IMG/VR virus record: IMGVR_UViG_3300036845_000453
Location: 1 to 20,193 of that record
Source: a virus
DNA length: 20,193 nt
Direction: 5' to 3' (one strand)
Of this stretch, positions 3,832 to 20,193 are shown piece by piece. The notes below the pieces were generated by a model. It worked only from the letters and a program-made list of their open reading frames with translations, was not told the origin of the DNA and did not search any database. Each line of letters starts with the position of its first letter. Within the stretch, counting starts at the first letter, position 1. A program made the position numbers and the translations under genes.

Positions 3832-4458
3832 ATGCCGCTCGACACCCAGACTTGGCCGGCAGATCAGGTGGAGCGATGGCCGCTCGCGAAGCTGGTCCCG
3901 TATGCCCGCAATGCCCGCACACACTCCCAGGAACAGATCCGGCAGGTGGCCGCATCCATGCGTGAATGGGGCTGGACGATCCCGGTCCTGGCCGATGAGC
4001 GGGGCGGCATCATCGCGGGACATTGCAGGGTGAGCGCTGCGGAGATGAACGGCTACGACGAAGCCCCTGTGATGGTAGCCCGCGGCTGGTCGGATGCGAA
4101 GAAGCGCGCTTACATCATTGCCGACAACAAGCTGAGTCTCAATGCCGGATGGGACGAAGAACTGCTGGGCCTGGAATTGCTGGAGCTGCGCGAGAGCGGC
4201 GTCGATCTTGGCTTAACCGGCTTCGCGGGTTCAGAGTTGGTCGCCCTCTTGCGCGAGGTGGAAGAAGCCCAGCCTCCCGATCTGCCGGATGGAGAGCGCA
4301 CGCCATACCGGCAGATCACCTTTACCCTGCACGACGAGCAGGCCGCGCTCGTGGCCCTGGCGCTGGCTGCCGCCAAAGAAAAAGGGCCGTTCTCGCTGGA
4401 GCTGAATGAGAACGTCAACGGCAACGCCCTGGCGCGGATCTGTGAGGCGTACCTGTGA
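3832..4458 (+). CDS. ParB-like N-terminal domain protein (modification-associated)
   Basis: This 208-residue protein carries a ParB/Srx-like fold: WPLAKLVPYARNARTHS (16-32) and the nucleotide-binding box IIAGHCRVSAA (60-70), which is GHCR rather than the classical GHRR. RAYIIADNKLSLNAGWDEE (93-110) follows, then a C-terminal domain ending in NENVNGNALARICEAYL. This architecture is common in phages and next to DNA-modifying enzymes. It is not a chromosome-partition ParB, since the HTH and dimer domains are absent. It has a strong AGGAG ribosome site and overlaps the Mom-like gene by GTGA, so the two are almost certainly co-translated. ParB-fold domains can use CTP or ATP; I infer a helper or nuclease role in modification. 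Confidence 0.85.
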   Translation: MPLDTQTWPADQVERWPLAKLVPYARNARTHSQEQIRQVAASMREWGWTIPVLADERGGIIAGHCRVSAAEMNGYDEAPVMVARGWSDAKKRAYIIADNKLSLNAGWDEELLGLELLELRESGVDLGLTGFAGSELVALLREVEEAQPPDLPDGERTPYRQITFTLHDEQAALVALALAAAKEKGPFSLELNENVNGNALARICEAYL

Positions 4459-5255
4459 CAGGAGTGCCCACGGCCAAGGATCTCCGCGTGGCTATCATCC
4501 GCTCCGCTGATGCCCACGCCTTCATGCGCAAGGCGCACTACTCGCATAAGAGCGTGCAGAATTCGCAGTTGCATCTGGGGGTGTTTCTCGGTACGCGCCT
4601 CGAAGGGGCGATGCAGCTCGGGCCGCCGCTGGATCGCCGCAAGCTGATCACGCTGGTGGCCGATACGCCTTGGACCGGCTTCCTCGAATTGAACCGCATG
4701 GCGTTCACGGACAACCTGCCGCGCAATTCGGAAAGCCGCGCGATCGCGGTGGCCATGCGCCTCCTGAAGAAACAGTTCCCGCAGATTCAATGGATCGTCA
4801 GTTTTGCCGACGCCACGCAATGCGGGGATGGTACGATCTATCGCGCGTCGGGGTTCGTGCTCACGGCGATCCGCGCCAACACCACCATCTGGGGAGGACC
4901 GGAGGGCGAGGTGATTACCAACATCGGTATCCGCACCAGCGGCAAGGCGCTGCAGGCGTTTGCCCATGTCGGCGGTAACGACGTGTACCGGGGCGGAGCC
5001 AGCATGACGCACTTCCGCGCGGCTGGCTTCCGTCCGCTGAAAGGCTTCCAGCTTCGGTATCTTTACTTCCTGCACCCCACGGCCAGGGAGCGGCTGACGG
5101 TGCCGGTGATACCATACTCTGCAATCCGCACGGCGGGTGCTTCGATGGCTCGCGGTGTTCGTGTAAGCGTCGGAAGTGGCCCGGCAGACACAGCCGCGTT
5201 TTACCGCGCGGAAGAGGGCGGTTCGACCCCGACCCCGACGCTCCAAGATCCATAG
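4455..5255 (+). CDS. mom: Mom-like adenine hypermodification protein (GNAT fold)
   Basis: This 266-residue protein resembles phage Mu Mom, which converts adenine to N6-(carbamoylmethyl)adenine (momA) and protects phage DNA from host restriction. Visible family features are FMRKAHYSHKS (23-33), LELNRMAFTDNLPRNSESRA (78-97), which is the GNAT-like acceptor/cofactor region, and IVSFADATQCGDGTIYRASGF, split as IVSFADAT (114-121) and GTIYRASGF (126-134). The C-terminus LRYLYFLHP then a Gly/Ser/Thr tail is usual for the phage versions. The start is GTG 4455, overlapping the ParB-like stop; GTG 4464 is an alternative. Mu regulates mom with the zinc-finger Com protein, and no Com homologue is visible here. 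Confidence 0.85.
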   Translation: MTGVPTAKDLRVAIIRSADAHAFMRKAHYSHKSVQNSQLHLGVFLGTRLEGAMQLGPPLDRRKLITLVADTPWTGFLELNRMAFTDNLPRNSESRAIAVAMRLLKKQFPQIQWIVSFADATQCGDGTIYRASGFVLTAIRANTTIWGGPEGEVITNIGIRTSGKALQAFAHVGGNDVYRGGASMTHFRAAGFRPLKGFQLRYLYFLHPTARERLTVPVIPYSAIRTAGASMARGVRVSVGSGPADTAAFYRAEEGGSTPTPTLQDP

Positions 5256-5945: not shown

Positions 5946-6155
5946 ATGACCGTCGAGTTCACACGCCAGGGCAAAACCTATTTCTGCGTGCTCGGACCTG
6001 TTCACGGACCCACGCCCCCAGAGCGGATTTCTATTGCGTTCCGCCCTTGCGCCTACAAAGCGCCGGTCATGCTAGAACTCGCCTATCTCGGCCGCGATCC
6101 CACACGCGCCATAGAGCTGTACCAGCCCGTCGAAAGCGATCCTGGCGAAGACTGA
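5946..6155 (+). CDS. Small hypothetical protein
   Basis: This 69-residue protein starts directly after the TAG of the glycine-rich gene, with no gap, which points to translational coupling. It reads as a short beta-rich protein (TVEFTRQGKTYFCVLG, ISIAFRPCAYKAPVMLELAYLG) with an acidic end. I do not recognise a family. Its position suggests it is a partner of the preceding putative virion protein. The first 17-bp repeat unit begins 12 bp after its stop. Confidence 0.65.
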   Translation: MTVEFTRQGKTYFCVLGPVHGPTPPERISIAFRPCAYKAPVMLELAYLGRDPTRAIELYQPVESDPGED

Positions 6156-6166
6156 TTTCCCGCAGC

Positions 6167-6268
6167 GTGAAGCTCCTTCGCGCGTGAAGCTTCAGACGCG
6201 GTGAAGCCCCTATTGTGGTGAAGCTCCGGGACTCGTGAAGCCTTCTGGTGAGTGAAGCTCTCTCGCAC
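6167..6268 (+). repeat. 17-bp-periodic repeat array 1 (six units)
   Basis: Six copies of the 7-mer GTGAAGC begin at 6167, 6184, 6201, 6218, 6235 and 6252, exactly 17 bp apart. The core extends to GTGAAGCTC in about half the units, and the other 8-10 bases of each unit differ from copy to copy. The period is not a multiple of three, so coding on either strand does not explain it. A second array with the same core and orientation lies at 9963. Array 1 overlaps the 3' end of the minus-strand zinc-finger gene. Confidence 0.9.
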
Positions 6269-6590
6269 CCGTGCCCACGACGTAGCGGTCGAGCAACTGG
6301 TGAAACACTGTCACGCAGCCGGCGCAAAGGTCCGGCGGCAAGGTGCGCACTCGTCGGCGACCAGTCGCCACCAGAAGTGCCGCACCGCAATAGGCATGCC
6401 ATGGGTCATCGTAGAGTTCCAGGTGTGTCACGCCGTCGAAGTCGCGCACCCGCAAGTCGATCTGATTGAGCACCCAGGTCTGCAGGAACCGGCGTTGGTG
6501 CTGCAGCAGACCGTTGCGGGCGCGCAGCGCCTGGCACTCCCGGCAGACCCGCTTCACCGTTTTGCCGCATTCCGCGCAGATCACGCGCAC
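6210..6590 (-). CDS. Small zinc-finger protein, unknown function, with repeat-encoded tail
   Basis: This 126-residue protein from GTG 6590-6588 has CAEC and CREC at residues 5-8 and 15-18 and, in the second half, WHAYCGA and LCAGC, a cysteine spacing typical of zinc ribbons. A basic segment with a predicted helix (ALRARNGLLQHQRRFLQ) lies between them. It is probably nucleic-acid binding or structural; no named family is recognised. The last 18 residues (ELH...FT...ASP) are translated from 17-bp repeat array 1, so the tail may be an accident of the array and the original stop may have been lost. No good Shine-Dalgarno is visible. Confidence 0.6.
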   Translation of the reverse strand: MRVICAECGKTVKRVCRECQALRARNGLLQHQRRFLQTWVLNQIDLRVRDFDGVTHLELYDDPWHAYCGAALLVATGRRRVRTLPPDLCAGCVTVFHQLLDRYVVGTGARELHSPEGFTSPGASPQ

Positions 6591-6623
6591 TAGAATATCA
6601 GGATTTACACTATTTGCTGAGTG

Positions 6624-6652
6624 TTGACAGAGACAGCAAAATTAGGTATCCT
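6624..6652 (+). promoter_or_regulatory. Sigma70-type promoter of the small-gene operon
   Basis: A perfect -35 TTGACA lies at 6624-6629, followed after exactly 17 bp by TATCCT at 6647-6652 (4 of 6 matches to TATAAT). It points to the plus-strand gene run that starts at 6697 and predicts a start of transcription near 6659, right at the palindrome. Confidence 0.6.
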
Positions 6653-6658
6653 ATAAGA

Positions 6659-6674
6659 GATCGGATAGCCGATC
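6659..6674. promoter_or_regulatory. Inverted repeat, probable operator
   Basis: GATCGG (6659-6664) and CCGATC (6669-6674) are perfect inverted arms around four bases. The palindrome covers the predicted transcription start, where a repressor dimer would block the promoter at 6624. It could instead form a small 5' UTR hairpin. Confidence 0.5.
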
Positions 6675-6680
6675 AGAAAC

Positions 6681-6696
6681 GGACTAAGACAAACAA
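6681..6696 (+). promoter_or_regulatory. A-rich leader box before the first small gene
   Basis: GGACTAAGACAAACAA sits immediately before ATG 6697. It contains both elements (GGACTAA and GACAAACAA) that recur in front of other genes in this window. There is no classic Shine-Dalgarno at normal spacing, so this box may be the translation signal. Confidence 0.45.
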
Positions 6697-6906
6697 ATGA
6701 CACAGCATTGGTATGACGCGGAGGTCGTAAACCTCAAAGGCCTAAAGGCTAGAGCGCGTGACAATTACGCGATTGGCATGAAGGTGAAGGCGCATCTGAA
6801 AGATGGGGAGCCCACTTCGGTGGTGATCCAGGGGACAGGGATGTATGGCACCGATGCCATTGTGCCGCGCACTCTCATTCGCTTTACGGGAATGGGGGTG
6901 AAGTAA
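6697..6906 (+). CDS. Small hypothetical protein, first gene of plus-strand operon
   Basis: This 69-residue protein (MTQHWYDAEVVNLKGL...) has a basic first half (LKARARDNYAIGMKVKAHLK) and then a short beta-rich part with PTSVVIQGTGMYG. I do not recognise a family. It is the first gene after the TTGACA promoter, and the next gene starts 3 bp after its stop. The coding bias at third positions looks normal for the window. Confidence 0.65.
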   Translation: MTQHWYDAEVVNLKGLKARARDNYAIGMKVKAHLKDGEPTSVVIQGTGMYGTDAIVPRTLIRFTGMGVK

Positions 6907-6909
6907 GCG

Positions 6910-7182
6910 ATGACCATCCAACAAGCGGCACAAACGGCACTCGATATTCAGTACGCTTCCAATGCGTCGGGAGTGACTAAAACGCTGGCAGGACCAGTCG
7001 CAGATGCGATCTGGGAAGAGGTGCGCAGCTCGGGCAGCGGGTGTTTCAACCGGCATCCCATCATCGCTCTGTTCCTCTTCAAAATTGGTGAGCTGAACGG
7101 CTGCGGAATCAGTTCGCTCGATCCCGGTTATGAGGCAGCCGAGCAGGCGTGCATCGCCTTGGCTGCGGAGGTGTCCCAGTAA
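6910..7182 (+). CDS. Small hypothetical protein
   Basis: The 90-residue frame looks mostly helical (TIQQAAQTALDIQYASNASG; LFLFKIGELNGCG) with an Ala-rich C-terminus (EAAEQACIALAAEV). No signal peptide or clear motif is seen, and no family is recognised. The stop TAA shares its last base with the next ATG at 7182, which indicates coupling. Confidence 0.65.
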   Translation: MTIQQAAQTALDIQYASNASGVTKTLAGPVADAIWEEVRSSGSGCFNRHPIIALFLFKIGELNGCGISSLDPGYEAAEQACIALAAEVSQ

Positions 7183-7412
7183 TGGCCACCACTCTGATCT
7201 ATGAACTCATGGCGCGGTGGGAATCCCGCTCCGGGAAGTGGTGGGCCAATCTTTACCATGACGGTGAACACGCTTTCTACCGGGGAGTGGGATGCGGCGG
7301 AAACATGGGCCTCATCACCTGGGAAGCCGCGATAGTGGAATTGCAAGCAAAGGTGGATTCCGGCTACTTCCAACCGGATGCGCTCAAGATCCCGATGAAG
7401 AGAGTGAAGTAA
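7182..7412 (+). CDS. Small hypothetical protein
   Basis: The protein has 76 residues from ATG 7182, chosen because it overlaps the previous stop (TAATG). A start at 7149 would intrude into the previous gene. It is rich in aromatic residues (RWESRSGKWWANLYHDGEHAFYRGVG at residues 10-35, given here as the pattern W-x8-WW-x2-LYHDG) and ends basic (MKRVK). It probably folds as a small beta-rich domain. The family is unknown. Confidence 0.65.
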   Translation: MATTLIYELMARWESRSGKWWANLYHDGEHAFYRGVGCGGNMGLITWEAAIVELQAKVDSGYFQPDALKIPMKRVK

Positions 7413-7418
7413 GTTACC

Positions 7419-7444
7419 AGACAAACAAGAGGACAACGGACTAA
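7419..7444 (+). promoter_or_regulatory. A-rich leader box before an internal operon gene
   Basis: AGACAAACAAGAGGACAAC is followed by GGACTAA and ATG 7445. Both shared leader elements are present although this gene lies inside the operon, 32 bp after the previous stop. This argues for a translational or RNA-level role rather than a promoter. Confidence 0.45.
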
Positions 7445-7777
7445 ATGACTAACAACGAACAAACGAAAAAGCCTGCGGAGATCACTCCCCAGGAGATGCA
7501 CGAAAAGATGCTGGCCATTGCGGCCACCATCGGCCTCCCGAAGCACTACAGAAATGATCTGCTTTTTCATGACCTGGAAGCGCTGTGCGATATGCGCGCT
7601 GCAGGCAAAACGAGGTTCTGGTGGCGGCTGCGCGAATGCGGCACCCAATTCTCTTCGCACTCGGAGAGCTACGCGCGGATGGAGTGGAGCAATGAGCAGG
7701 GCCACTGCTACTTTGGCGATCTGGCCACCGGCGAACTCAGGCTGCTGCCGGTTCCGGCTGAAAGGCGGGTGCGGTAG
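7445..7777 (+). CDS. Hypothetical protein
   Basis: This 110-residue protein has a charged, polar N-terminus (MTNNEQTKKPAEITPQEMHEK begins it), a helical centre (LLFHDLEALCDMRAAGKTRFWW) and a C-terminal part that looks beta-rich (CYFGDLATGELRLLPV). I recognise no family. It is preceded by the shared A-rich leader and is followed directly, without a gap, by the next ATG at 7778. Confidence 0.65.
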   Translation: MTNNEQTKKPAEITPQEMHEKMLAIAATIGLPKHYRNDLLFHDLEALCDMRAAGKTRFWWRLRECGTQFSSHSESYARMEWSNEQGHCYFGDLATGELRLLPVPAERRVR

Positions 7778-8224
7778 ATGGCGGCCAACGATTCCAAACC
7801 AGGTTGTTTGAGCATCATTGGGTTCTTTCTCTTTCTGGGAGGTGCAGTATGGCTATTCCAAACGCTCACCGCCACTCCCCAGGATAAGGCCCGGTGGGCC
7901 AAGAATGACCGAGAGCACGCCGCATATAACGCACAGAAGGTTAAGGACCCGCAATCGCAACTCGAATATTACGCTTGCAAGAAAGTGCAAAAATATGCAC
8001 TCGATCAACTCCGCGCTCCTTCTACGGCAGACTTCCCATCTTGCACTTGGGATGGGAAAGGGGCGGTCACCTACAAAGGCGACGGGCATTACGAGGTAAA
8101 TTCCTACGTCGATTCACAGAACGGCTTTGGTGCGATGCTCCGCAGTACGTTTTGGGGAAAGATAAACATAGCAGAGAACCACTGGACAATCTCTGATTTC
8201 GGTTTTGAAGGAGGGTTGCAATGA
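7778..8224 (+). CDS. Membrane-anchored protein with extracytoplasmic domain
   Basis: This 148-residue protein has one transmembrane helix near the N-terminus (residues 10-30, LSIIGFFLFLGGAVWLFQTL), preceded by a lysine, so the C-terminus is probably outside. The soluble part contains LRAPSTADFPSC followed by HYEVNSYVDSQNGFGAMLR, a pattern seen in a widespread small domain of exported or membrane-anchored proteins in bacteria and phages. Two cysteines (in YYACKK and FPSCTW) could pair. It has no named function. It may alter the envelope of the lysogen. Its stop overlaps the next start (ATGA). Confidence 0.7.
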   Translation: MAANDSKPGCLSIIGFFLFLGGAVWLFQTLTATPQDKARWAKNDREHAAYNAQKVKDPQSQLEYYACKKVQKYALDQLRAPSTADFPSCTWDGKGAVTYKGDGHYEVNSYVDSQNGFGAMLRSTFWGKINIAENHWTISDFGFEGGLQ

Positions 8225-8415
8225 CCCTCTTTATCCGAATCGGGAACCTCACTTACGAGGTTCCCCGCAGCGGTATGAATGGCCTCCTGGGGCAACTCAA
8301 GGTGGCCGCGGATCAAAGCGGCAAACCGGTGACAGCTACCATCACGGTGCTGCCGGCCGCAGCCCAACGCGCTTGCGATCTCATCACCGATACGCTGCAG
8401 GAGTTCCGCCGATGA
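8221..8415 (+). CDS. Small hypothetical protein
   Basis: This 64-residue protein begins MTLFIRIGNLTYEVP, then a Gly-rich turn and a helix, and ends in ITDTLQEFRR. It overlaps both neighbours by four bases (ATGA). The alternating strand and helix pattern suggests a compact alpha/beta fold. No family is recognised. Confidence 0.6.
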   Translation: MTLFIRIGNLTYEVPRSGMNGLLGQLKVAADQSGKPVTATITVLPAAAQRACDLITDTLQEFRR

Positions 8416-8606
8416 GCGCATACAAGGTGGCTCAGAATCCCTACACTAAACTCTGGGTTGTGGTGGGCTTTGCGGGATTTGTCCGCAAGGGAAAGCCGGT
8501 GTATATCCCGGTATCCGATGGCTTCCCCACCAAGGCAGCCGCACTGAAACACATTCCGCACCTGATGGCAGCGGAAGCATCGGCCAAGCGGGAGTTGTCG
8601 GTATGA
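8412..8606 (+). CDS. Small hypothetical protein
   Basis: The protein has 64 residues from ATG 8412, which overlaps the previous stop by ATGA; an upstream in-frame ATG at 8205 would run through the previous gene. It reads as strand-rich at the start (KLWVVVGFAGFVRKGKPVYIPV) and then a helix (KAAALKHIPHLMAAEASAKR). The pattern resembles small phage accessory proteins, but I cannot name a family. Confidence 0.6.
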   Translation: MSAYKVAQNPYTKLWVVVGFAGFVRKGKPVYIPVSDGFPTKAAALKHIPHLMAAEASAKRELSV

Positions 8607-8959
8607 GCAACACCAAGCGCATTGCCGAACTCAACGACCTCGCGCGTACCGCGATGGGCATCTGTAGCCGCGCGCATCAGACCAGGGGCATCTCAGCACT
8701 GCCGCCCGCGGTTCAATCGCGCATCCGGGAGAAGGTGGAAACCTTCTCGGATTTCACGCCCGGTAATGATCCGCATGGTGAGCGGGATTTCGGCAACTTC
8801 GAGATCAATGACGGCTTTGATGGATTTGAACACGACCCGATTAAAGTGTTCTGGAAAATCGACTATTACGACAAGGCGCTGGAGTACGGCAGCGAGGATC
8901 CGGCAGACCCGAAAGTTACAACGCGGGTTCTGACCATCATGCTGGCCGAAGAGTACTAA
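8603..8959 (+). CDS. DUF3768 family protein
   Basis: This 118-residue protein matches the DUF3768 pattern closely. It starts RIAELNDLARTA, then ISALPPAVQSRI, FSDFTPGNDPHGERDFG, KVFWKIDYYDKALEYGSEDP and ends VTTRVLTIMLAEEY. This family is common on proteobacterial plasmids and phages and has no known function. The length is typical and the frame is intact. It overlaps the previous gene by ATGA and is the best-conserved member of this operon. Confidence 0.85.
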   Translation: MSNTKRIAELNDLARTAMGICSRAHQTRGISALPPAVQSRIREKVETFSDFTPGNDPHGERDFGNFEINDGFDGFEHDPIKVFWKIDYYDKALEYGSEDPADPKVTTRVLTIMLAEEY

Positions 8960-8961
8960 GC

Positions 8962-8978
8962 AAAGGAAAGGACTAACT
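8962..8978 (+). promoter_or_regulatory. Leader box with Shine-Dalgarno before the 8979 gene
   Basis: AAAGGAAAGGACTAAC lies just before ATG 8979. The same 16 bases occur on the minus strand at about 15697-15712 before another operon. It contains AAGGA, so it acts at least as a ribosome site. Confidence 0.5.
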
Positions 8979-9284
8979 ATGAAAACGACGGAAACAACAG
9001 ATACCAGAACCTTATCCGAAAAGCGCCGCGCTGCCAGTCTGGCGCGGACCACCTTCTCGGGTGGACATGGCAAGCGCTCGAAGAAGATCCGCTGCGAATG
9101 CGGCCAGATGACTGCCAAGCGCGCACTCGCCAGGGGCCACTACTGCGGAGCGGAAGCGGTTGCCACCAAGGCGGCCGATGAGATTACGGACCTATGGTGG
9201 GCCGCGCCGGATCTGAACAAGGCAACCAAGATGGATGTAGTGCGCGAGATCATCCTGCGCCACTTCAAGGAGTCGAAAGCATGA
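8979..9284 (+). CDS. Small basic protein with cysteine motif, unknown function
   Basis: This 101-residue protein has a polar Thr-rich start, then a strongly basic segment (GGHGKRSKKIRCECGQMTAKR) containing CEC and, 18 residues later, HYCG, which could bind one zinc ion. The C-terminal half is helical (MDVVREIILRHFKES). This composition suggests nucleic-acid binding. The 5' end (AAAACGACGGAAACAACA) is nearly repeated at 9906, after the last gene of the operon. The stop overlaps the next ATG (ATGA). Confidence 0.6.
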   Translation: MKTTETTDTRTLSEKRRAASLARTTFSGGHGKRSKKIRCECGQMTAKRALARGHYCGAEAVATKAADEITDLWWAAPDLNKATKMDVVREIILRHFKESKA

Positions 9285-9712
9285 GCCACTACGAGTATGT
9301 TCTGGCGCGATCCGCTGGCGAGAAGTGGGGTCCAAGCATTTGGAACTTCTACGAGACTCTGCAGGGTGCCACCACGGCAGCTTCGGAGGTCAACCGGCAG
9401 GAGAAAGGCGAACCTTATACGCCGATGACCTACCTGCGCTTTCAGGAGTTGGAGCGCGAGTTCTGGCTCAAGGAGGGACCGGCCAGGATCACCGCGGAGA
9501 AGTTCCATGACATGCTGAATGTCCTGCCACCGATGCGCTGGAAACAGGAGGGTGCTTTCAACTCCTTCATGATGTCCGAGCGCATGAGCGGAACATTCAC
9601 TTACCAGTACGCGCAGCTCGGGTTCGAGACCGGTGCGGTGTACTTCCAGAAGATGGTGGATCTGTCCGATGCCACAACCTTCATGACAGAAAAGAGCGTG
9701 CGAGCACTATGA
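9281..9712 (+). CDS. Hypothetical protein, possibly DUF1419-like
   Basis: The protein has 143 residues from ATG 9281, chosen for its ATGA overlap with the previous stop. The second half reads ITAEKFHDMLNVLPPMRW, then SFMMSERMSGTFTYQYA and TGAVYFQKMVDLSD. This order (helix, LPP, W, SFxxSE, G, Y) recalls a small family of plasmid and phage proteins, possibly DUF1419; I am not sure. It is predicted to be cytoplasmic, and its function is unknown. Confidence 0.65.
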   Translation: MSHYEYVLARSAGEKWGPSIWNFYETLQGATTAASEVNRQEKGEPYTPMTYLRFQELEREFWLKEGPARITAEKFHDMLNVLPPMRWKQEGAFNSFMMSERMSGTFTYQYAQLGFETGAVYFQKMVDLSDATTFMTEKSVRAL

Positions 9713-9906
9713 CACTAACGATAACAATCACCATGGGTAACGATGCCATGCAGACTATCGAGGATCTTTCCGCAGCGCTTCGCAAGGTTGCCAGAGAGGT
9801 GGATGAACTGGACATGATCGAAGCCGGTTCCGAGATACTCTCTGGCCGCATTAGAGACGCCAACGCCAATTCGGTAGGAGAGTGGAACATCACAGGCAAA
9901 GCATAA
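9709..9906 (+). CDS. Small acidic helical protein, last gene of operon
   Basis: The 65 residues include a Thr-rich strand at the start (MTLTITITMG) and then a long helix with heptad-like spacing (MQTIEDLSAALRKVAREVDE), which could dimerise. The ATGA overlap with the previous gene and a terminator 20 bp downstream mark it as the last gene of the operon. No family is recognised. Confidence 0.6.
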   Translation: MTLTITITMGNDAMQTIEDLSAALRKVAREVDELDMIEAGSEILSGRIRDANANSVGEWNITGKA

Positions 9907-9925
9907 AAACGACGGAACAACATCG

Positions 9926-9961
9926 GCCCCGATTCGGATCACTTCCAGATCGGGGCGTTTT
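9926..9961 (+). terminator. Rho-independent terminator of the small-gene operon
   Basis: GCCCCGAT (9926-9933) and ATCGGGGC (9949-9956) form a perfect 8-bp stem with a 15-base loop, followed by GTTTT. It lies 19 bp after the stop of the last gene and just before repeat array 2. Confidence 0.65.
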
Positions 9962-9962
9962 G

Positions 9963-10060
9963 GTGAATCCCGGAGTATGGTGAAGCTCCGAGGCCGGTGA
10001 AGCTCGATGGTTGGTGAAGCTCGATGGTTGGTGAAGACGGTTGGTGAAGCTCGGGTGGGG
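9963..10060 (+). repeat. 17-bp-periodic repeat array 2 (six units)
   Basis: GTGAA cores begin at 9963, 9980, 9997, 10014, 10031 and 10044. The first four steps are exactly 17 bp and the last is 13 bp because the 10031 unit has lost four bases. The 10014 unit and its neighbour share the spacer GATGGTTG, a sign of recent duplication. The first core is GTGAATC and the 10031 core is GTGAAGA; the rest are GTGAAGC. The orientation and core match array 1. No gene covers this array. Confidence 0.9.
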
Positions 10061-10145
10061 ACTAGTGAGCGCTTTGGTCGGGGACGGGTTGGTGGGATGA
10101 AAAGCATAGTCCAACCTTACAGTCCTTTTCTGTTTCTGTCAATAG

Positions 10146-10194
10146 ATCAGCAAAAGAAAATGTGAAAAATCTTTTTCGATGAATCTTTGCTGAT
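10146..10194. promoter_or_regulatory. Nested inverted repeats in an AT-rich region
   Basis: ATCAGCAAA (10146-10154) and TTTGCTGAT (10186-10194) are perfect 9-bp inverted arms, and inside them GAAAAA (10164-10169) and TTTTTC (10172-10177) form a second pair with the same centre. This lies directly upstream of the promoter at 10198 and is much richer in A+T than the rest. A regulator binding site is likely; an origin-like unwinding element is possible. Confidence 0.5.
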
Positions 10195-10197
10195 TGC

Positions 10198-10227
10198 TTG
10201 ACACATACAGCATGTCATGCTTACTAT
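10198..10227 (+). promoter_or_regulatory. Sigma70-type promoter with internal palindrome
   Basis: TTGACA at 10198-10203 and TACTAT at 10222-10227 are 18 bp apart. The spacer holds GCATG-T-CATGC (10210-10220), an inverted repeat in the position of a repressor operator. It would drive the Lys/Ala-rich gene at 10275. Confidence 0.6.
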
Positions 10228-10255
10228 GGTGGAGTACTTGCCTAATGCGGTACAG

Positions 10256-10274
10256 AAAAGGACAAACAAACAAC
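10256..10274 (+). promoter_or_regulatory. A-rich leader box before the Lys/Ala-rich gene
   Basis: AAAAGGACAAACAAACAAC precedes ATG 10275 with no other clear ribosome site. It is the same motif as at 6688, 7420, 14891 and 15711, and here it is present in a short 5' UTR of about 40 bases after the TTGACA promoter. Confidence 0.5.
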
Positions 10275-10778
10275 ATGACAAACAAACAGAACATCCTGAG
10301 CGCCAAGGCCGAAAAGCTGATTGCCGATACTACAAAGGCAGTAAAGGCCGCTACAAAAGCCGAGGTATTACAGGCTGAGGCATTCAAGGCCGCATCCAAG
10401 GCCGCTCGTAAGGCCGCTCCCAAGGCTGAGGCCGCATCCAAGGCCGCTCCTAAGGCCGCTCCTAAGGCCGCTGCCGCTCCTAAGGCCTTTGGCATCCACA
10501 TCAACAAAACAGGCCGCGTATGCTTTTCGGCCATCGCTGCCGCGCGTATCCCTGCCGAGCTGGCGCATGTGGAAGTAAAGGCCGATGGCAAGAAAATTAC
10601 CATCCAGCCTGTAGCGAAATTCTCCGAGACATCTACCGAGCTTCGATGGGCTGGCAATCGGCCTTACATCTCTGCTACCAAAATCCTTAAGGCTACTGGC
10701 CTTTTTGATGGCTCTAAGAGCTTTGATTTTGAGGCCGCTCCGATCAATGGATGCGGCTTTCAATTCGTAATGGCATAA
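10275..10778 (+). CDS. Lys/Ala-rich protein with histone H1-like repeats
   Basis: This 167-residue protein begins MTNKQNILSAKAEKLIADTT. From about residue 20 to 75 it is a low-complexity string of KA, KAA and KAAPKAA repeats, like histone H1 tails or bacterial HctB/AlgP-type proteins, which bind DNA non-specifically. The C-terminal 95 residues are an ordered domain (FGIHINKTGRVCFSAIAAARIP, PYISATKILKATGLFDGSKS). I favour ATG 10275 over an in-frame ATG at 10194, which would lie upstream of the promoter -10. The domain type is not recognised. The strong promoter suggests high expression. A nucleoid-binding role is inferred. Confidence 0.7.
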   Translation: MTNKQNILSAKAEKLIADTTKAVKAATKAEVLQAEAFKAASKAARKAAPKAEAASKAAPKAAPKAAAAPKAFGIHINKTGRVCFSAIAAARIPAELAHVEVKADGKKITIQPVAKFSETSTELRWAGNRPYISATKILKATGLFDGSKSFDFEAAPINGCGFQFVMA

Positions 10779-10798
10779 GGCCTTTTCGAATCTCTCTC

Positions 10799-10823
10799 TG
10801 GCCCCAGCGCATAGCTGGGGCCA
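10799..10823 (+). terminator. Intercistronic hairpin, terminator-like
   Basis: TGGCCCCAGC (10799-10808) and GCTGGGGCCA (10814-10823) are perfect 10-bp arms around GCATA, followed by TTCCCATTTC. The T-run is weak, so this may be a partial terminator or mRNA-end stabiliser between the Lys/Ala-rich gene and the 55-residue gene. Confidence 0.55.
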
Positions 10824-11093: not shown

Positions 11094-11183
11094 CCTGAGC
11101 GCTGCCGCTGGCCTGAGCGCTGCCGCTGGCCTGAGCGCTGCCGCTGGCCTGAGCGCTGCCGCTGGCCTGAGCGCTGCCGCTGG
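11094..11183. repeat. Five perfect 18-bp tandem repeats
   Basis: The unit CCTGAGCGCTGCCGCTGG occurs five times head-to-tail with no differences. It contains the palindrome AGCGCT. It lies 5 bp after the strong terminator, in a region with no credible gene. An open frame through it (a PERCRW repeat) is an artefact of the 18-bp length. Possible roles are binding of a DNA-associated protein, an iteron-like replication element or a neutral minisatellite. Confidence 0.95.
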
Positions 11184-11531
11184 CCCTTAATACCGAACCG
11201 CCCAGGCGCGGTCACACCTTTCACGCCGCACGTAGCACTCCACCTTTATCGCCATCCACTTCATAGTCGCCACTACAGCCTCACCGCGCGGTCGCCACGC
11301 TGGTCGGCCCACTCCCCATCAGTCTCCCGACTCCGACCTCACCTGACGCATCTGGTGCCAACTGGTGGGCCAACCTTGGTCGGAGACTCCTTGGTTCCGA
11401 CTTTTTGACTAAAAGGTACTCCGCGCCGGACCGAAGGCCGGCGGGCCTGCCGCCCGCACAAAATCGCTAGTATCGACGTAAATTGGTGATTTTAGGTGAC
11501 TTACGCCAACTAAAGTCATAGTAAGTCGTAG
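11184..11531. other. Gene-free region with several inverted repeats
   Basis: About 350 bp lie between the tandem repeat and the end of a minus-strand operon. I see no credible gene. It holds CTCCGACC near 11332 paired with GGTCGGAG near 11380, a GC-rich hairpin GGCGGGCCTGCCGCCC near 11438-11456, and AAGTC-type short repeats at 11493-11533. The base composition is C-rich on the plus strand until about 11400. Confidence 0.5.
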
Positions 11532-15136: not shown

Positions 15137-15297
15137 GTTGATTGCTCTCCGGGTACGTCTTTCGAGTGAATAATCTGCACCAAGTCGAAACAGGGAATAC
15201 AAACGAAGTCCACCGTTTGTGGTGCCCATCCGACCAGCAGATGGCAGATTCGACACGCGACCATCTGAGGGTCCATCATCGTGATACCCGTCTTCAT
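15133..15297 (-). CDS. Very small zinc-motif protein (54 residues)
   Basis: The 54 residues contain VACRICHLLVG and FVCIPCFDLVQ, that is two CxxC pairs about 16 residues apart, a standard zinc-ribbon spacing. The start at 15297 overlaps the previous stop and the end overlaps the next start, so it is coupled on both sides. It could be a regulatory or host-takeover zinc peptide; the function is unknown. Confidence 0.65.
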   Translation of the reverse strand: MKTGITMMDPQMVACRICHLLVGWAPQTVDFVCIPCFDLVQIIHSKDVPGEQST

Positions 15298-15641
15298 GCC
15301 ACCGCTCGCTTTCTGGCGCTGCGCCGCACATAGTCGGTGTAATTCAGCAGTGTCTTGACGTTGTGCATGTAATGCGAGAACGCGCGACTCGGGCTGTCTT
15401 TCATCACAATCGTGTTCTCGAAGTGATACTTCGCTTCCAGGCCGCGCTGGGTCAGTCGCAAGCCATCCCGGCTGTATTCGATCCATCCGCGGTGATACAG
15501 GCTGCCCAATGAACGCTGATCGATATGGATGGCCGAGTCCAGGGATAGAGCGTCATCCGGGCGCTCGGTAAAGATGCGCAACGCGGCGCACTGCCGGTTC
15601 GACATCAGTACCTTGTGATTTAGATCGCCGATGGCTTCCAT
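15294..15641 (-). CDS. Winged-helix-like small protein
   Basis: This 115-residue protein has MSNRQCAALRIFTERPDDAL, then LGSLYHRGWIEYSRDGLRLT and QRGLEAKYHFENTI, a helix-helix-strand order like a winged-helix DNA-binding domain (LxxLxxRGWIExxxxGLRLTxxG). It probably binds DNA and may regulate its own operon. A 14-codon mini-ORF ends 4 bp before its start, so its translation may depend on that leader. Confidence 0.6.
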   Translation of the reverse strand: MEAIGDLNHKVLMSNRQCAALRIFTERPDDALSLDSAIHIDQRSLGSLYHRGWIEYSRDGLRLTQRGLEAKYHFENTIVMKDSPSRAFSHYMHNVKTLLNYTDYVRRSARKRAVA

Positions 15642-16155: not shown

Positions 16156-16736
16156 GAGGCCACCTCAAAATCGAATAGTGTTCCGAATGCTGGCTTGGCC
16201 TTGAGAATAGCTTGGCGTTTTTCCCATTTAGCCCAATAGAGAAGTTTGGCAGCCCACCGCTCAGGGGATGCCTTAGCTTTGCCCCGATTGCAGCTCATAC
16301 AACACCACTTAGTATTGGTCGTATAAAACGGATCGTCTGCGGGTCGGATGATATCGAGGGTCACATCGCCAAGTCCATTTGCCATTTCTGCGAAGGGACG
16401 GCGACAATATGGGCAACCGTTCTTGAATGCGTGCTCGATGTCGTGTGCCATGTTCCGGATATCCCAACCAAAACGATCTGTTAGCTCACTTGCGGCCTGA
16501 ATCAACCCCGTTTTCTTGAACTTCGGTGCATGTTTAAGCAGGGCACTGCGCGCTTTGACCAGAAACCGCTTGCCGTTGTTTTTGTCGTCGGTGCGCCGGG
16601 TAAGACGGCAACCGATACAGCGGAGTTGTTTATTTGCTTTCCCGTAGCAAGAATTCTTACTACGGACCACCTCGAAGAACACTTCGCCGTACCACTCTCG
16701 ACACTCAACACAATACAGTTGTCGCTCCGGTATCAT
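16152..16736 (-). CDS. HNH-type endonuclease, atypical
   Basis: The protein has 194 residues from ATG 16736, chosen for the ATGA overlap with the previous gene. An N-terminal zinc element uses C9, C12, C40 and C43. The HNH-like part has CPYC (108-111), VTLDIIRPADDP (125-136), YTTNTKW (138-144) and CMSCNRGK (146-153). The CxxCN-xx-K ending is typical of HNH nucleases, but the usual Asp-His is Asp-Ile here (D128-I129), so the metal site may differ or be inactive. Its place next to the replication protein suggests a role in phage DNA processing or packaging. Confidence 0.75.
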   Translation of the reverse strand: MIPERQLYCVECREWYGEVFFEVVRSKNSCYGKANKQLRCIGCRLTRRTDDKNNGKRFLVKARSALLKHAPKFKKTGLIQAASELTDRFGWDIRNMAHDIEHAFKNGCPYCRRPFAEMANGLGDVTLDIIRPADDPFYTTNTKWCCMSCNRGKAKASPERWAAKLLYWAKWEKRQAILKAKPAFGTLFDFEVAS

Positions 16737-17635
16737 TGCCGGCCTCGCAGTCTGTCCTTCTCCGCCAGCCGTCCCATGCTCGCCGCGTTCCGCTCTCCCG
16801 CCGTCGCATAAGCCCTCAGTGCAGGCTTCCGGATCACCGGCGCTACAGTCCAGTCCCGATCTTCCAGCCAGCGCCACAACTGCGGAATGAACTTTCCGGC
16901 CTCCAGGGTGTTCCAGTACTCAATCCACTGAGCGTGGCGAATCTCGATGGTTTTGGCACATCGCGCGGCTGTGTCCGAACCATCACCCAGAATCGCGTCC
17001 AATCTCAGCAGCGCCTTGACCGGCAAGCCCGGCTGCGGGTGTACTTTCAGTAACGTTTCGCAGAGTTCAAGCGTGAAGGGCGAGCGCAGCGAGAGGCGTT
17101 GGCCGCGAAAGTTTTCCTCAGAAGACGACGGGGCCGCCGCCGCCGCATGGTGTACGCTCCGGGGCACGGCGTCCCCCTCGTTTCCAGATAAGTAGGTTCT
17201 CTGAGTAGGTTCAGTCAATAAGGATACGGGGGGTCCAGACCTGACATCTGTGTCAGGTCTGACCTGACAATTAGTCAGTTCTGGCGCGGCTTCCGGTGGA
17301 CGCGGCGGGTTAGGATTTTCCACCGCTGTGGAAAAAGTTTTCCGCAGGAGCAGACGCCACTGATCCCGCGCCGCGATGATGTACTGGCAGGTGTGCTGAC
17401 ATCGGTCGACGGCGATCAGCCGCCATTTCCGCAACTCGGCCAGCGCGCGATAGATTGTGCGCTCGCATACCTTCAGGTTATCCGCCAGGCGCTTGATACG
17501 CGGGTTACATTGGCCGGTGACTTTGTTCCGATAGTCGTCCAGGAGAGCTAACAGGAGTTTGGCGTAGGTGGAGAGATGATCGTCTTCCAGGAGAAACTTT
17601 GGCAGAATCAGGGACGGTTGGGTTATATTGGACAT
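16733..17635 (-). CDS. Helix-turn-helix replication protein
   Basis: This 300-residue protein has an N-terminal winged HTH: LSTYAKLLLALLDDYRN (21-37) followed by RIKRLADNLKVCERTIYRAL and LRKWRLIAVD, the order of HTH_36-type domains in phage replication initiators. A Pro/Ser-rich linker (105-190) follows, and the C-terminus has LRLDAILG and WIEYWNTLEAGKFIPQLWRW. The layout (DNA-binding head, flexible linker, partner-binding tail) resembles lambda O-like replication proteins. It is the first gene of its operon, with AAAAGG before ATG 17635. Confidence 0.75.
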   Translation of the reverse strand: MSNITQPSLILPKFLLEDDHLSTYAKLLLALLDDYRNKVTGQCNPRIKRLADNLKVCERTIYRALAELRKWRLIAVDRCQHTCQYIIAARDQWRLLLRKTFSTAVENPNPPRPPEAAPELTNCQVRPDTDVRSGPPVSLLTEPTQRTYLSGNEGDAVPRSVHHAAAAAPSSSEENFRGQRLSLRSPFTLELCETLLKVHPQPGLPVKALLRLDAILGDGSDTAARCAKTIEIRHAQWIEYWNTLEAGKFIPQLWRWLEDRDWTVAPVIRKPALRAYATAGERNAASMGRLAEKDRLRGRQ

Positions 17636-17786: not shown

Positions 17787-18153
17787 ATGGGCTGCGCTCG
17801 TGCGCTGTGAGCCATTCCGCCAGTTCGCGCGAAGACGCCACCACGGCCACGCGCAGGCGGTAGCCTAACGTCAATTGCTGGATCTTGAACCGCTGATCGG
17901 CCGAGAGGCCGCCGCCTACTTCCCGCTTGACCTCCAGCATGAAACCGGGGTGCCGGGAATGGATCACCACGTAATCCGGCAGGCCGCGCTCACCCAGGCG
18001 AATCCAGCGCCCGTCATTTGTCTTGAAAGTGCCGACATGCTGGCGCGCCGGATAGTAGCCGCGAACCCGCAAAAGGTCCAGACAAGCACGCTCTACATCG
18101 TTCTCCGAGAGCGGCGGCGGTGCTTTCAGGCGGAATGCCGGTGCCCGTTTCAT
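17785..18153 (-). CDS. VRR-NUC domain nuclease
   Basis: This 122-residue protein is a stand-alone VRR-NUC (PD-(D/E)xK) nuclease. The expected residues are seen: E18 in SENDVERAC, GLPDYVVIH (D60), FMLEVKRE (E74, K76) and LSADQ (Q87). Phages use such Holliday-junction or flap nucleases in replication and recombination. It overlaps the methyltransferase stop by ATGA, so the two proteins are produced together. An alternative is a small restriction partner. Confidence 0.85.
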   Translation of the reverse strand: MKRAPAFRLKAPPPLSENDVERACLDLLRVRGYYPARQHVGTFKTNDGRWIRLGERGLPDYVVIHSRHPGFMLEVKREVGGGLSADQRFKIQQLTLGYRLRVAVVASSRELAEWLTAHERSP

Positions 18154-18746
18154 GGCAGATGCACCCGCGCCATATGGTCCGCCAGCGGAAACGGAATCTT
18201 CGAAAGGGTAGCTACGGCGTTTTTCCGCTCGGGAGTGGTGGAGTAGAACCGCGAGAACGGCGTATCTTCGAAGCGCGGCGCGAACCCCTTCCGGCCCCCT
18301 GCCGGAAATGGCATCAGCGCCGGGACATCACCCCACAGATAGTAGCTGTGATAGTGCCAGGCCGCGCGGCCTACCCACGGCTGGGCTCCGCGCACATTCT
18401 CAACGATCAGCGGGATCGGTCGGCCGGCAGCTTCGGACGCTTCCCGGCGAATCCGGAAGCACGCTTCGAACAGGGAATTATCGGGAGGTGGTAAATCGCG
18501 GACCCGCTTCCAGGGCATCGCCCGATAGCTGTATTGCTGGCAGGGGGGAGACGCAACAATCACAGCCGCATCGCGGAACTGCGATCCGTGGAGCGTAAGT
18601 ACATCCTGAATAACGAGTTGCGCCGGATACGGGCGGCGCTCGATGTCGAAACCCACCACCTCGTAGCCATTGGCCAGAAATCCTTCCGTCCAGCCGCCGA
18701 GGCGGCAAAAGAGATCAATACAGAACGGTTTAGACTGAGGGCTCAT
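18150..18746 (-). CDS. DNA (cytosine-5) methyltransferase, short form
   Basis: This 198-residue protein has the core C5 motifs: DLFCRLGGWTEGF (11-23; SAM binding), VVGFDIERR (D34), ASPPCQQYS with the catalytic Cys at about residue 69 and LIVENVRG (ENV 116-118). Typical enzymes have 300-400 residues, so the target-recognition domain is strongly reduced, as in many phage versions. The frame is intact and no frameshift is seen. Its start lies 25 bp after a recombinase-side terminator, so it needs its own promoter, which I could not identify. Confidence 0.85.
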   Translation of the reverse strand: MSPQSKPFCIDLFCRLGGWTEGFLANGYEVVGFDIERRPYPAQLVIQDVLTLHGSQFRDAAVIVASPPCQQYSYRAMPWKRVRDLPPPDNSLFEACFRIRREASEAAGRPIPLIVENVRGAQPWVGRAAWHYHSYYLWGDVPALMPFPAGGRKGFAPRFEDTPFSRFYSTTPERKNAVATLSKIPFPLADHMARVHLP

Positions 18747-18879: not shown

Positions 18880-20193
18880 CTAAGCCACCTTTCGGCGGAT
18901 TGAAAATGCCGGATACATACTGTCTTGAATCTGTTCCGATTTAATACAGTATGTTTCCGGCTTTTTATTGGCAATTCCGCTCCCGCCGTCATCATCCGGC
19001 TTGAAGTGGATCATAATTTCGCCGTTTTCCAGTAATTCGACGCGCTCTACCCGCTTGCGGATCGCTTCGCGCTTCTCTTCCGGGCTCATTACAGCCGTTA
19101 ACTTGCGCCCGGTACTCTTTTCTAGGCTGAAGGCCTTGCGCGCCTTCGGAGCGGGCTGTATTGCCGACAATTGCGCCTCTAAAGTACGGCGCTGTTTCTG
19201 GCAATCTTTCAGCGCCGTCCGGAATGTCTCATAGGCGTCCGTCAGATCCGGATCGAGCATCGATTGGGTGGCGCGGAATTCCTTGGTCTTCAGTTTCCCG
19301 ATAGCCTTTTCCAGATCCGCCCGCTGCTTCGCGACCTCGGGAGCGGCTTGGACCTTCGCGGCCTCCCGTTGATGTTCGCGGTAGAGTGCCGGGGCATCGG
19401 CATCCAAGGCCAATACGGTCTTCCAAACTGTTTCTTCAATAGCATTCACAGGCTGCGAAAGCTGGTCGCAGCGGCGCTTGTAATGGGCATCAATGTTATT
19501 GCAGCGATACCGGATCGTTCCATGGTTGCAATTGATTACGCAGGAGTATCCGCACTTTCCGCACTTCAGCAAGCCGCGCAGCATGTAGACCGCTGGCCTG
19601 CCACCGTTCAAGCGCTTATTCGCTGCCATGCGTAGCCGCACTCGATCGAAAAGAGCGCGGTCGATAATAGGCGGCGTCGGAACCATAATCCAGTCCGCTT
19701 CCGGGCGATATTTAGCTGAGGTCTTTTTAGACTTACCCGCGGGTGCGGCTTTTCGCCTCTCGCCCTTCGGCTCAGACTTCACCCGGCGATTGTATCGCGC
19801 TTCGCCATAGTAGGTGGTATTGGCTAGCATCTGCGAAATGACCTGTTTCGCCCATAACTTCGCCTTCAGAGGCCGGACCCCTTCATCGCCGAGGCGTCGG
19901 CAGATATCCAGCAGGCCCATGCCATCCGCCGCCCACTGGAAGATGTTCCGCACCACCGCCGCCTGCTCGGGCACAATGGCCAACCCGCCCTTCTTGCCCT
20001 GGAGTTTGCCTTCATACCGATAGCCATATGCGATCCGCCCACCGACAATGTGGCCCTGCATCGCCTTCTCTTTACGACCCCGTGCGGAGCGCTCCGCAAA
20101 CTTAGCCTTCTCGAACTCCGCGAAGACGCCGCGCATGTTCAGCATCATCTTACCTTCCGGATTGTCTCCCACCGGAGCATTGACTACTTCCAG
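18880..20193 (-). CDS. Large serine recombinase (partial, C-terminal 437 residues)
   Basis: The frame enters from the right edge with no visible start, so roughly the first 100-150 residues, with the catalytic Ser, are outside the window. Visible parts begin with the end of the resolvase domain (NAPVGDNPEGKMML, GVFAEFEKAKFAERSARG). The Recombinase domain has GGRIAYGYRYEGK, NIFQWAADGMG and MLANTTYYGEARYN. The zinc ribbon is LKCGKCGYSC and RYRCNN with a further Cys, and a coiled coil lies near residues 270-350. It is probably the phage integrase. The 3' end contains a large inverted repeat. Confidence 0.9.
   Translation of the reverse strand: MEVVNAPVGDNPEGKMMLNMRGVFAEFEKAKFAERSARGRKEKAMQGHIVGGRIAYGYRYEGKLQGKKGGLAIVPEQAAVVRNIFQWAADGMGLLDICRRLGDEGVRPLKAKLWAKQVISQMLANTTYYGEARYNRRVKSEPKGERRKAAPAGKSKKTSAKYRPEADWIMVPTPPIIDRALFDRVRLRMAANKRLNGGRPAVYMLRGLLKCGKCGYSCVINCNHGTIRYRCNNIDAHYKRRCDQLSQPVNAIEETVWKTVLALDADAPALYREHQREAAKVQAAPEVAKQRADLEKAIGKLKTKEFRATQSMLDPDLTDAYETFRTALKDCQKQRRTLEAQLSAIQPAPKARKAFSLEKSTGRKLTAVMSPEEKREAIRKRVERVELLENGEIMIHFKPDDDGGSGIANKKPETYCIKSEQIQDSMYPAFSIRRKVA
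18908..18961. repeat. Long inverted repeat in the recombinase 3' end
   Basis: GCCGGATACATACTGT (18908-18923) and ACAGTATGTTTCCGGC (18946-18961) pair at 15 of 16 positions with a 22-base loop; TTTTTATTG follows on the plus strand. It is inside the last 30 codons of the recombinase. It could be a rightward terminator, a recombinase-bound site or an attachment-related element. Confidence 0.7.

Follow-up and report, generated by a model that had tools for sequence, protein, structure and literature searches.

Two arrays of short direct repeats with a shared GTGAAGC core bracket an operon of small genes in a 20,193-bp virus contig from IMG/VR (IMGVR_UViG_3300036845_000453, for which the record gives no host). 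The whole contig is hereafter called the window, and positions follow its numbering unless another contig is named. We consider these arrays to be a real and unusual feature that is probably functional. The function that we infer, tentatively and as something short of probable, from their pattern of conservation is that of rows of asymmetric binding sites, of the form G-GTGAAGCTC-N7, for one phage or host DNA-binding protein. Besides many small unknown genes, the window has genes for a GpA-type terminase, for a Mom-type modification protein, and for an O-like replication initiator; coordinates of the features discussed here are collected in Table 1.

The GTGAAGC cores of array 1 start at 6167, 6184, 6201, 6218, 6235, and 6252, and those of array 2 at 9980, 9997, 10014, and 10044, with further GTGAA cores at 9963 and 10031. 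This position listing agrees with the initial annotation, which had described six cores exactly 17 bp apart in array 1, and six GTGAA cores separated by four 17-bp steps and one 13-bp step in array 2. Its statement that both arrays have the same orientation and enclose a promoter, an eleven-gene operon, a terminator, and the minus-strand gene zn is likewise correct. Seven core columns are invariant in array 1, so that all 42 core bases are identical across the six copies, whereas the ten spacer columns show a mean pairwise identity of 0.28, compared to 0.289 expected for random DNA of the same composition. Minisatellites, in which the whole unit is conserved and mutations are evenly spread, do not have this profile (pairwise identity 1.0 in the core and 0.28 in the spacer), and seven contiguous invariant columns have P ~1e-4 under a uniform-rate tandem repeat of equal overall identity. 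Over the whole window GTGAAGC is matched 12 times, compared to 2.9 expected, a count reached in 0/100 shuffles. Moreover, the longest constant-period run of any 7-mer is 6 in the window, and in 60 Markov shuffles it is 2 (58 times) or 3 (twice). The consensus over 14 units from the window and its sister phage G002 is GTGAAGCTC, frequently preceded by a G and accompanied by ~7 free bases.

Comparison with G002 (IMGVR_UViG_3300036828_000332, 52,037 bp), which carries both arrays at equivalent positions and matches the window at ~92% identity around array 1, supports selection on the core. The two phages differ in array 1 at 0/42 core positions and 4/60 spacer positions, the spacers being otherwise shared. 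Array 2 of G002 has three copies, just behind the corresponding terminator, and here the core is identical at 25/27 positions and the spacers at 5/16 (Fisher p 4e-5, from 43 positions counted by hand off the alignment). The intergenic DNA past array 2 cannot be aligned between the two phages until the promoter of the downstream gene rep10275 is reached. A core that is kept while spacers are replaced between sisters argues that the core is under selection and that simple slippage fails. This alignment of a single genome pair is the strongest evidence for what would be core selection. The preference of the initial annotation for a regularly spaced, selected site over slippage is therefore upheld twice, by the fixed cores and free spacers within array 1 and by the sister comparison in array 2.

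The main non-functional rival is that the arrays are intergenic minisatellites produced by slippage behind terminators in a repeat-prone clade, with no function, the conserved core being a product of chance or of recent expansion. Slippage clearly acts in this clade, because unrelated tandem repeats lie behind the next terminator, that of the rep10275 region, in 4/4 phages, the place being conserved and the sequence not. Most of their units are 18-20 bp, and the arrays lie at 11094-11185 in the window (perfect 18-bp repeats of a unit unrelated to the GTGAAGC arrays), at the G002 contig ends L081:6-108 and L083:11927-12033, at 25166-25463 in G399, and at 18084-18347 in G398. Since both contig ends of G002 lie in one repeat, the likely explanation is either a circular genome or a break introduced there during assembly. 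Within array 2, units 3 and 4 do not differ, as slippage would leave them, and in the close relative L085 array 1 is absent, with the flanking genes g69 and zn side by side. Most triple GTGAAGC arrays in bacteria are also ordinary minisatellites; in 84,980 species genomes searched for three GTGAAGC at 17 bp, 59 stretches were found, nearly all of them plain minisatellites with conserved units. Slippage fails, however, on conserved cores with replaced spacers: the 42 core bases of array 1 are intact among random spacers, and the cores of array 2 outlast its spacers between sisters. As a result, we regard this explanation as a serious one that is on balance doubtful.

The search of genomes and viral loci also indicates that the arrays are not common dispersed minisatellites, a possibility that the initial annotation had raised. 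Among 194 viral loci (1.87 Mb, some overlapping), only the window and G002 have arrays in which the phase is exact, the spacers are random, and the period is no multiple of three. The genome G001 is recorded as Vicinamibacteria, which places it in the phylum Acidobacteriota, and in 396 genomes of this phylum the only GTGAAGC array is the G001 minisatellite; TerL matches there are only distant (42-43%). Two small arrays at 17 bp with variable spacers, both chromosomal and intergenic, were also noted, one at L044:988-1028 (Balneolales), which lies just behind a stop codon between convergent genes, like array 1, and one at L019:2830-2900 (Methylophilaceae). No further GTGAAGC arrays are present in either of these two genomes.

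Several observations lead us to favor the binding-site reading. Core and 17-bp phase are kept while spacers drift; the two sister phages share one core, which they carry at two places and in one orientation; each site is intergenic and lies where a rightward transcription unit ends; and array 1 is absent from L085, while other clade phages have another core near the corresponding genes. In both arrays GTGAAGC reads along the same strand as the transcription unit upstream. Array 1 begins ~12 bp after the stop codon of g69, and array 2 starts a few bases past the T-run of the operon terminator, between that terminator and the rep10275 promoter. A row of protein with one molecule per core would cover ~100 bp. 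Such a row at array 1 would block or insulate transcription leaving the tail operon, where no terminator was found between g69 and the array, and a row at array 2 would do the same for transcription leaving the small-gene operon, directly behind its terminator. The distance from array 2 to the rep10275 promoter differs between the window and G002, making array 2 a poor fit for a simple operator.

The proposed action would resemble that of stoperators, in clustered form. Stoperators, the sites of the L5 repressor in cluster A mycobacteriophages, are 13-mers present in more than 20 copies throughout the genome, at which repressor monomers halt elongation in an orientation-dependent manner (PMC9283540). 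The arrays resemble stoperators or iterons and belong to neither. As in stoperators, the short sites of both arrays are asymmetric and intergenic, have one orientation relative to transcription, and occur in several copies per genome; unlike the dispersed single sites of stoperators, they are clustered, six at a time in two places, with a strict 17-bp phase. The 17-bp repeats of Corndog and other cluster O mycobacteriophages, which are 7-3-7 bp dyads in 34 dispersed copies (PMC4351075), are similarly short, conserved phage repeats of unknown function with many intergenic copies, although the cores described here are asymmetric and arrayed. Start-associated sequences of cluster K mycobacteriophages, found at translation starts (PMC3203893), are also short conserved phage repeats tied to gene borders, but the arrays are located at transcription-unit 3' ends.

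A number of points weigh against the binding-site reading. L085 lives without array 1. Only two phages carry arrays with the GTGAAGC core, so that the sister comparison depends on one genome pair, and its p value on the hand count noted above. Intergenic regions of the clade are generally rich in tandem repeats, and the identical units of array 2 imply that slippage acts there too. GTGAAGC outside the arrays of G002 is near expectation (9 matches, 6.8 expected), unlike stoperators. Finally, the 17-bp step corresponds to ~1.6 helix turns and is not helically phased.

This last point bears equally on the main functional rival, in which the arrays are iterons: array 2 and the adjoining AT-rich stretch would be an origin, array 1 a second control array, and the O-like initiator the binder. 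Like the iterons of P1, RK2 theta plasmids, and the lambda origin, the arrays are tandem direct repeats of iteron length with a conserved core and constant step, in two arrays with one core, next to the most AT-rich stretch of the window and in a genome that encodes an O-like initiator, whose own gene contains no iterated repeats. Plasmid iterons are, however, generally in helical phase (PMC5043065), and here only 7-10 of 17 bases are conserved. Moreover, lambda iterons are inverted repeats within the O gene, whereas the arrays are neither beside nor inside the initiator gene, which is ~6.7 kb away. The AT-rich stretch is in part a promoter, and in G002 the GC skew does not switch clearly at the array. 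We therefore think an iteron function unlikely.

The initial annotation had also suggested that the arrays delimit a mobile or exchangeable cassette, and had held that related phages with the same genes and no arrays would speak against it; L085, with its adjacent g69 and zn, is such a phage for array 1. Identity between the window and G002 is 0.92-0.94 on either side of array 1. G002 lacks homologues of the operon genes g1, g3, and g7, and a stretch of lower identity runs from about 8,600 onward. Because identity is equal on both sides and the differences consist of single operon genes and this stretch, array 1 is not a breakpoint between the two phages. Together with the absence of array 1 from L085, the steady identity leaves a cassette border weakly supported, at least in its original form.

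A milder version is suggested by the wider clade, which we sampled as 43 terminase relatives. No nucleotide match to 6100-10800 was found in annotated phages, and no annotated phage turned up as a relative of the clade. In ~10 relatives a different core, CCTCCACTTCA/CGTCCACTTCA (reverse complement TGAAGTGGAGG/TGAAGTGGACG), is present 23-295 bp upstream of zn, in 1-4 copies separated by steps of 11-23 bp. When all viral contigs were scanned with TCCACTTCA, promoter-type arrays were seen only in the clade that carries zn. G399, a more distant relative, carries two arrays of this second core, as GAAGTGGA. One is at zn and the other follows closely on the terminator of a small-gene operon containing a homologue of g3 of the window, so that the bracketing seen in the window recurs with another motif. 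Both G399 arrays also carry the palindrome-like GGGAGATCCC (22874 and 24041). In L095 and G398, in comparison, there is a single array, and rep and zn have no operon between them, a contrast that weakly keeps the milder cassette idea alive. If array pairs were homology or recombination sites for the gain, loss, or swapping of small-gene cassettes, the recurrent bracketing in G399 and the single arrays of L095 and G398 would be explained. Gene gain and loss inside the operon and steady identity at array 1 do not fit such an exchange boundary, nor do the inclusion of zn in the bracket of the window and its exclusion in G399, or the fact that arrays 1 and 2 share nothing past the core, and we judge it improbable. 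A broader proposal, speculative and quite unlikely, is that same-core arrays are paired borders of a variable small-gene operon, on each of which a protein would nucleate and then spread, or bridge the two rows, and so isolate the operon or guide its exchange, with the core (GTGAAGC or GAAGTGGA) changing with the protein between lineages.

It is most improbable that the arrays are remnants of transposon ends, the multiple direct repeats of which are bound by IstA, MuA, or TnsB. Such ends hold several direct copies of the transposase site (PMC10122671), with conserved and variable parts as in the IS21, Mu, and Tn7 terminal repeats, and the empty site in L085 means that array 1 was gained or lost. 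However, no rve/DDE integrase-core (PF00665) or IstB (PF01695) match is present in the window, G002, G398, G399, or the L085 contig. Both arrays point one way, with no inverted partner array, when the ends of a single element would be inverted, and the L085 alignment has no target duplication. Type III toxin-antitoxin RNA arrays (ToxI-like) or another RNA element are rejected because the arrays show no folding beyond shuffles (z -0.5, -1.4, 0.4, and -0.3) and no Rfam family match, and coding repeats because a 17-bp period, not being divisible by 3, breaks the frames.

Table 1. Features of the window at and around the two arrays.
Feature	Position	Strand	Description
g69	5946-6155	+	last gene of the rightward unit ahead of array 1
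Array 1	6167-6258	+	six GTGAAGC cores at exact 17-bp steps; g69 and zn converge on it with their 3' ends
zn	6210-6590	-	small protein with CxxC motifs, conserved beside the small terminase gene in the clade
Operon promoter	6624-6652	+	sigma70-like, TTGACA-17-TATCCT; consensus match only
Small-gene operon	6697-9906	+	eleven small open reading frames (ORFs), none with a confident Pfam family; g10 has a borderline DUF1419 match
Operon terminator	9926-9956	+	strong intrinsic hairpin, fold z -4.19; directly upstream of array 2
Array 2	9963-10052	+	six GTGAA cores (four with GTGAAGCTC), steps 17, 17, 17, 17, 13
AT-rich stretch	10101-10210		0.65-0.70 AT in 60-bp windows (mean 0.41); richest of the window, between array 2 and the rep10275 promoter
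rep10275 promoter	10198-10227	+	TTGACA-18-TACTAT; conserved in G002
rep10275 (AKP-repeat gene)	10275-10778	+	Lys/Ala/Pro repeat N-terminus, conserved C-terminal domain
O-like replication initiator	16733-17635	-	HTH_36; PHROG replication initiation; candidate binder if the arrays are iterons
Large serine recombinase	18880-20172		cut off by the contig end

Array 1 is also partly coding, in that the zn stop codon falls within it and the array itself encodes zn residues 111-126 (the last ~16 residues). The L085 protein stops ~17 residues sooner, and the extra tail in the window, which array 1 encodes, is predicted to be disordered. The zn protein has no Pfam, PHROG, or fold match; as a candidate binder of the arrays it was rejected, its AlphaFold model being fair (pLDDT 80) and without a fold match. 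A -10-like box lies a few bases ahead of the zn start codon in relatives, so close as to suggest a leaderless mRNA. The rep10275 gene adjoins an array in the window, G002, G398, G399, and L095. After array 2, G002 has a second fixed-core array, GTAGCACTT, at L007:9573-9690 with steps of ~22/16/21/16/21. Small intergenic arrays with that core are also seen in a few unrelated phages (L150, L153, L177, and L183), twice right behind related genes of 820-840 aa; GTAGCACTT arrays in other phages are mostly coding repeats, with a few intergenic, and none occur in the 396 genomes of the G001 phylum. The terminase large subunit of G002 (L007:297-3320) has an in-frame intein-like insertion with a LAGLIDADG domain after residue 587, and similar insertions are found at residue 93, in the ATPase domain, of the terminases at L099:3389-6418 and L100:1520-4585; the window terminase has no such insertion. 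A ParB-domain gene lies just upstream of the Mom-family DNA modification gene that the window carries at 4455-5255 (PF25680, E 2e-50). The ParB-like protein and a weak wHTH at 15294-15641 are further DNA-binding candidates of the phage.

Should the cores prove to be protein sites, the arrays may serve as a probe for a DNA-binding protein of environmental phages that is still uncharacterised, and they would provide a natural series (six sites, fixed phase, and free spacers) with which to ask why the step is 17 bp. That relatives have such arrays with another core suggests that site and protein form a fast-evolving pair, of the kind known for phage immunity.

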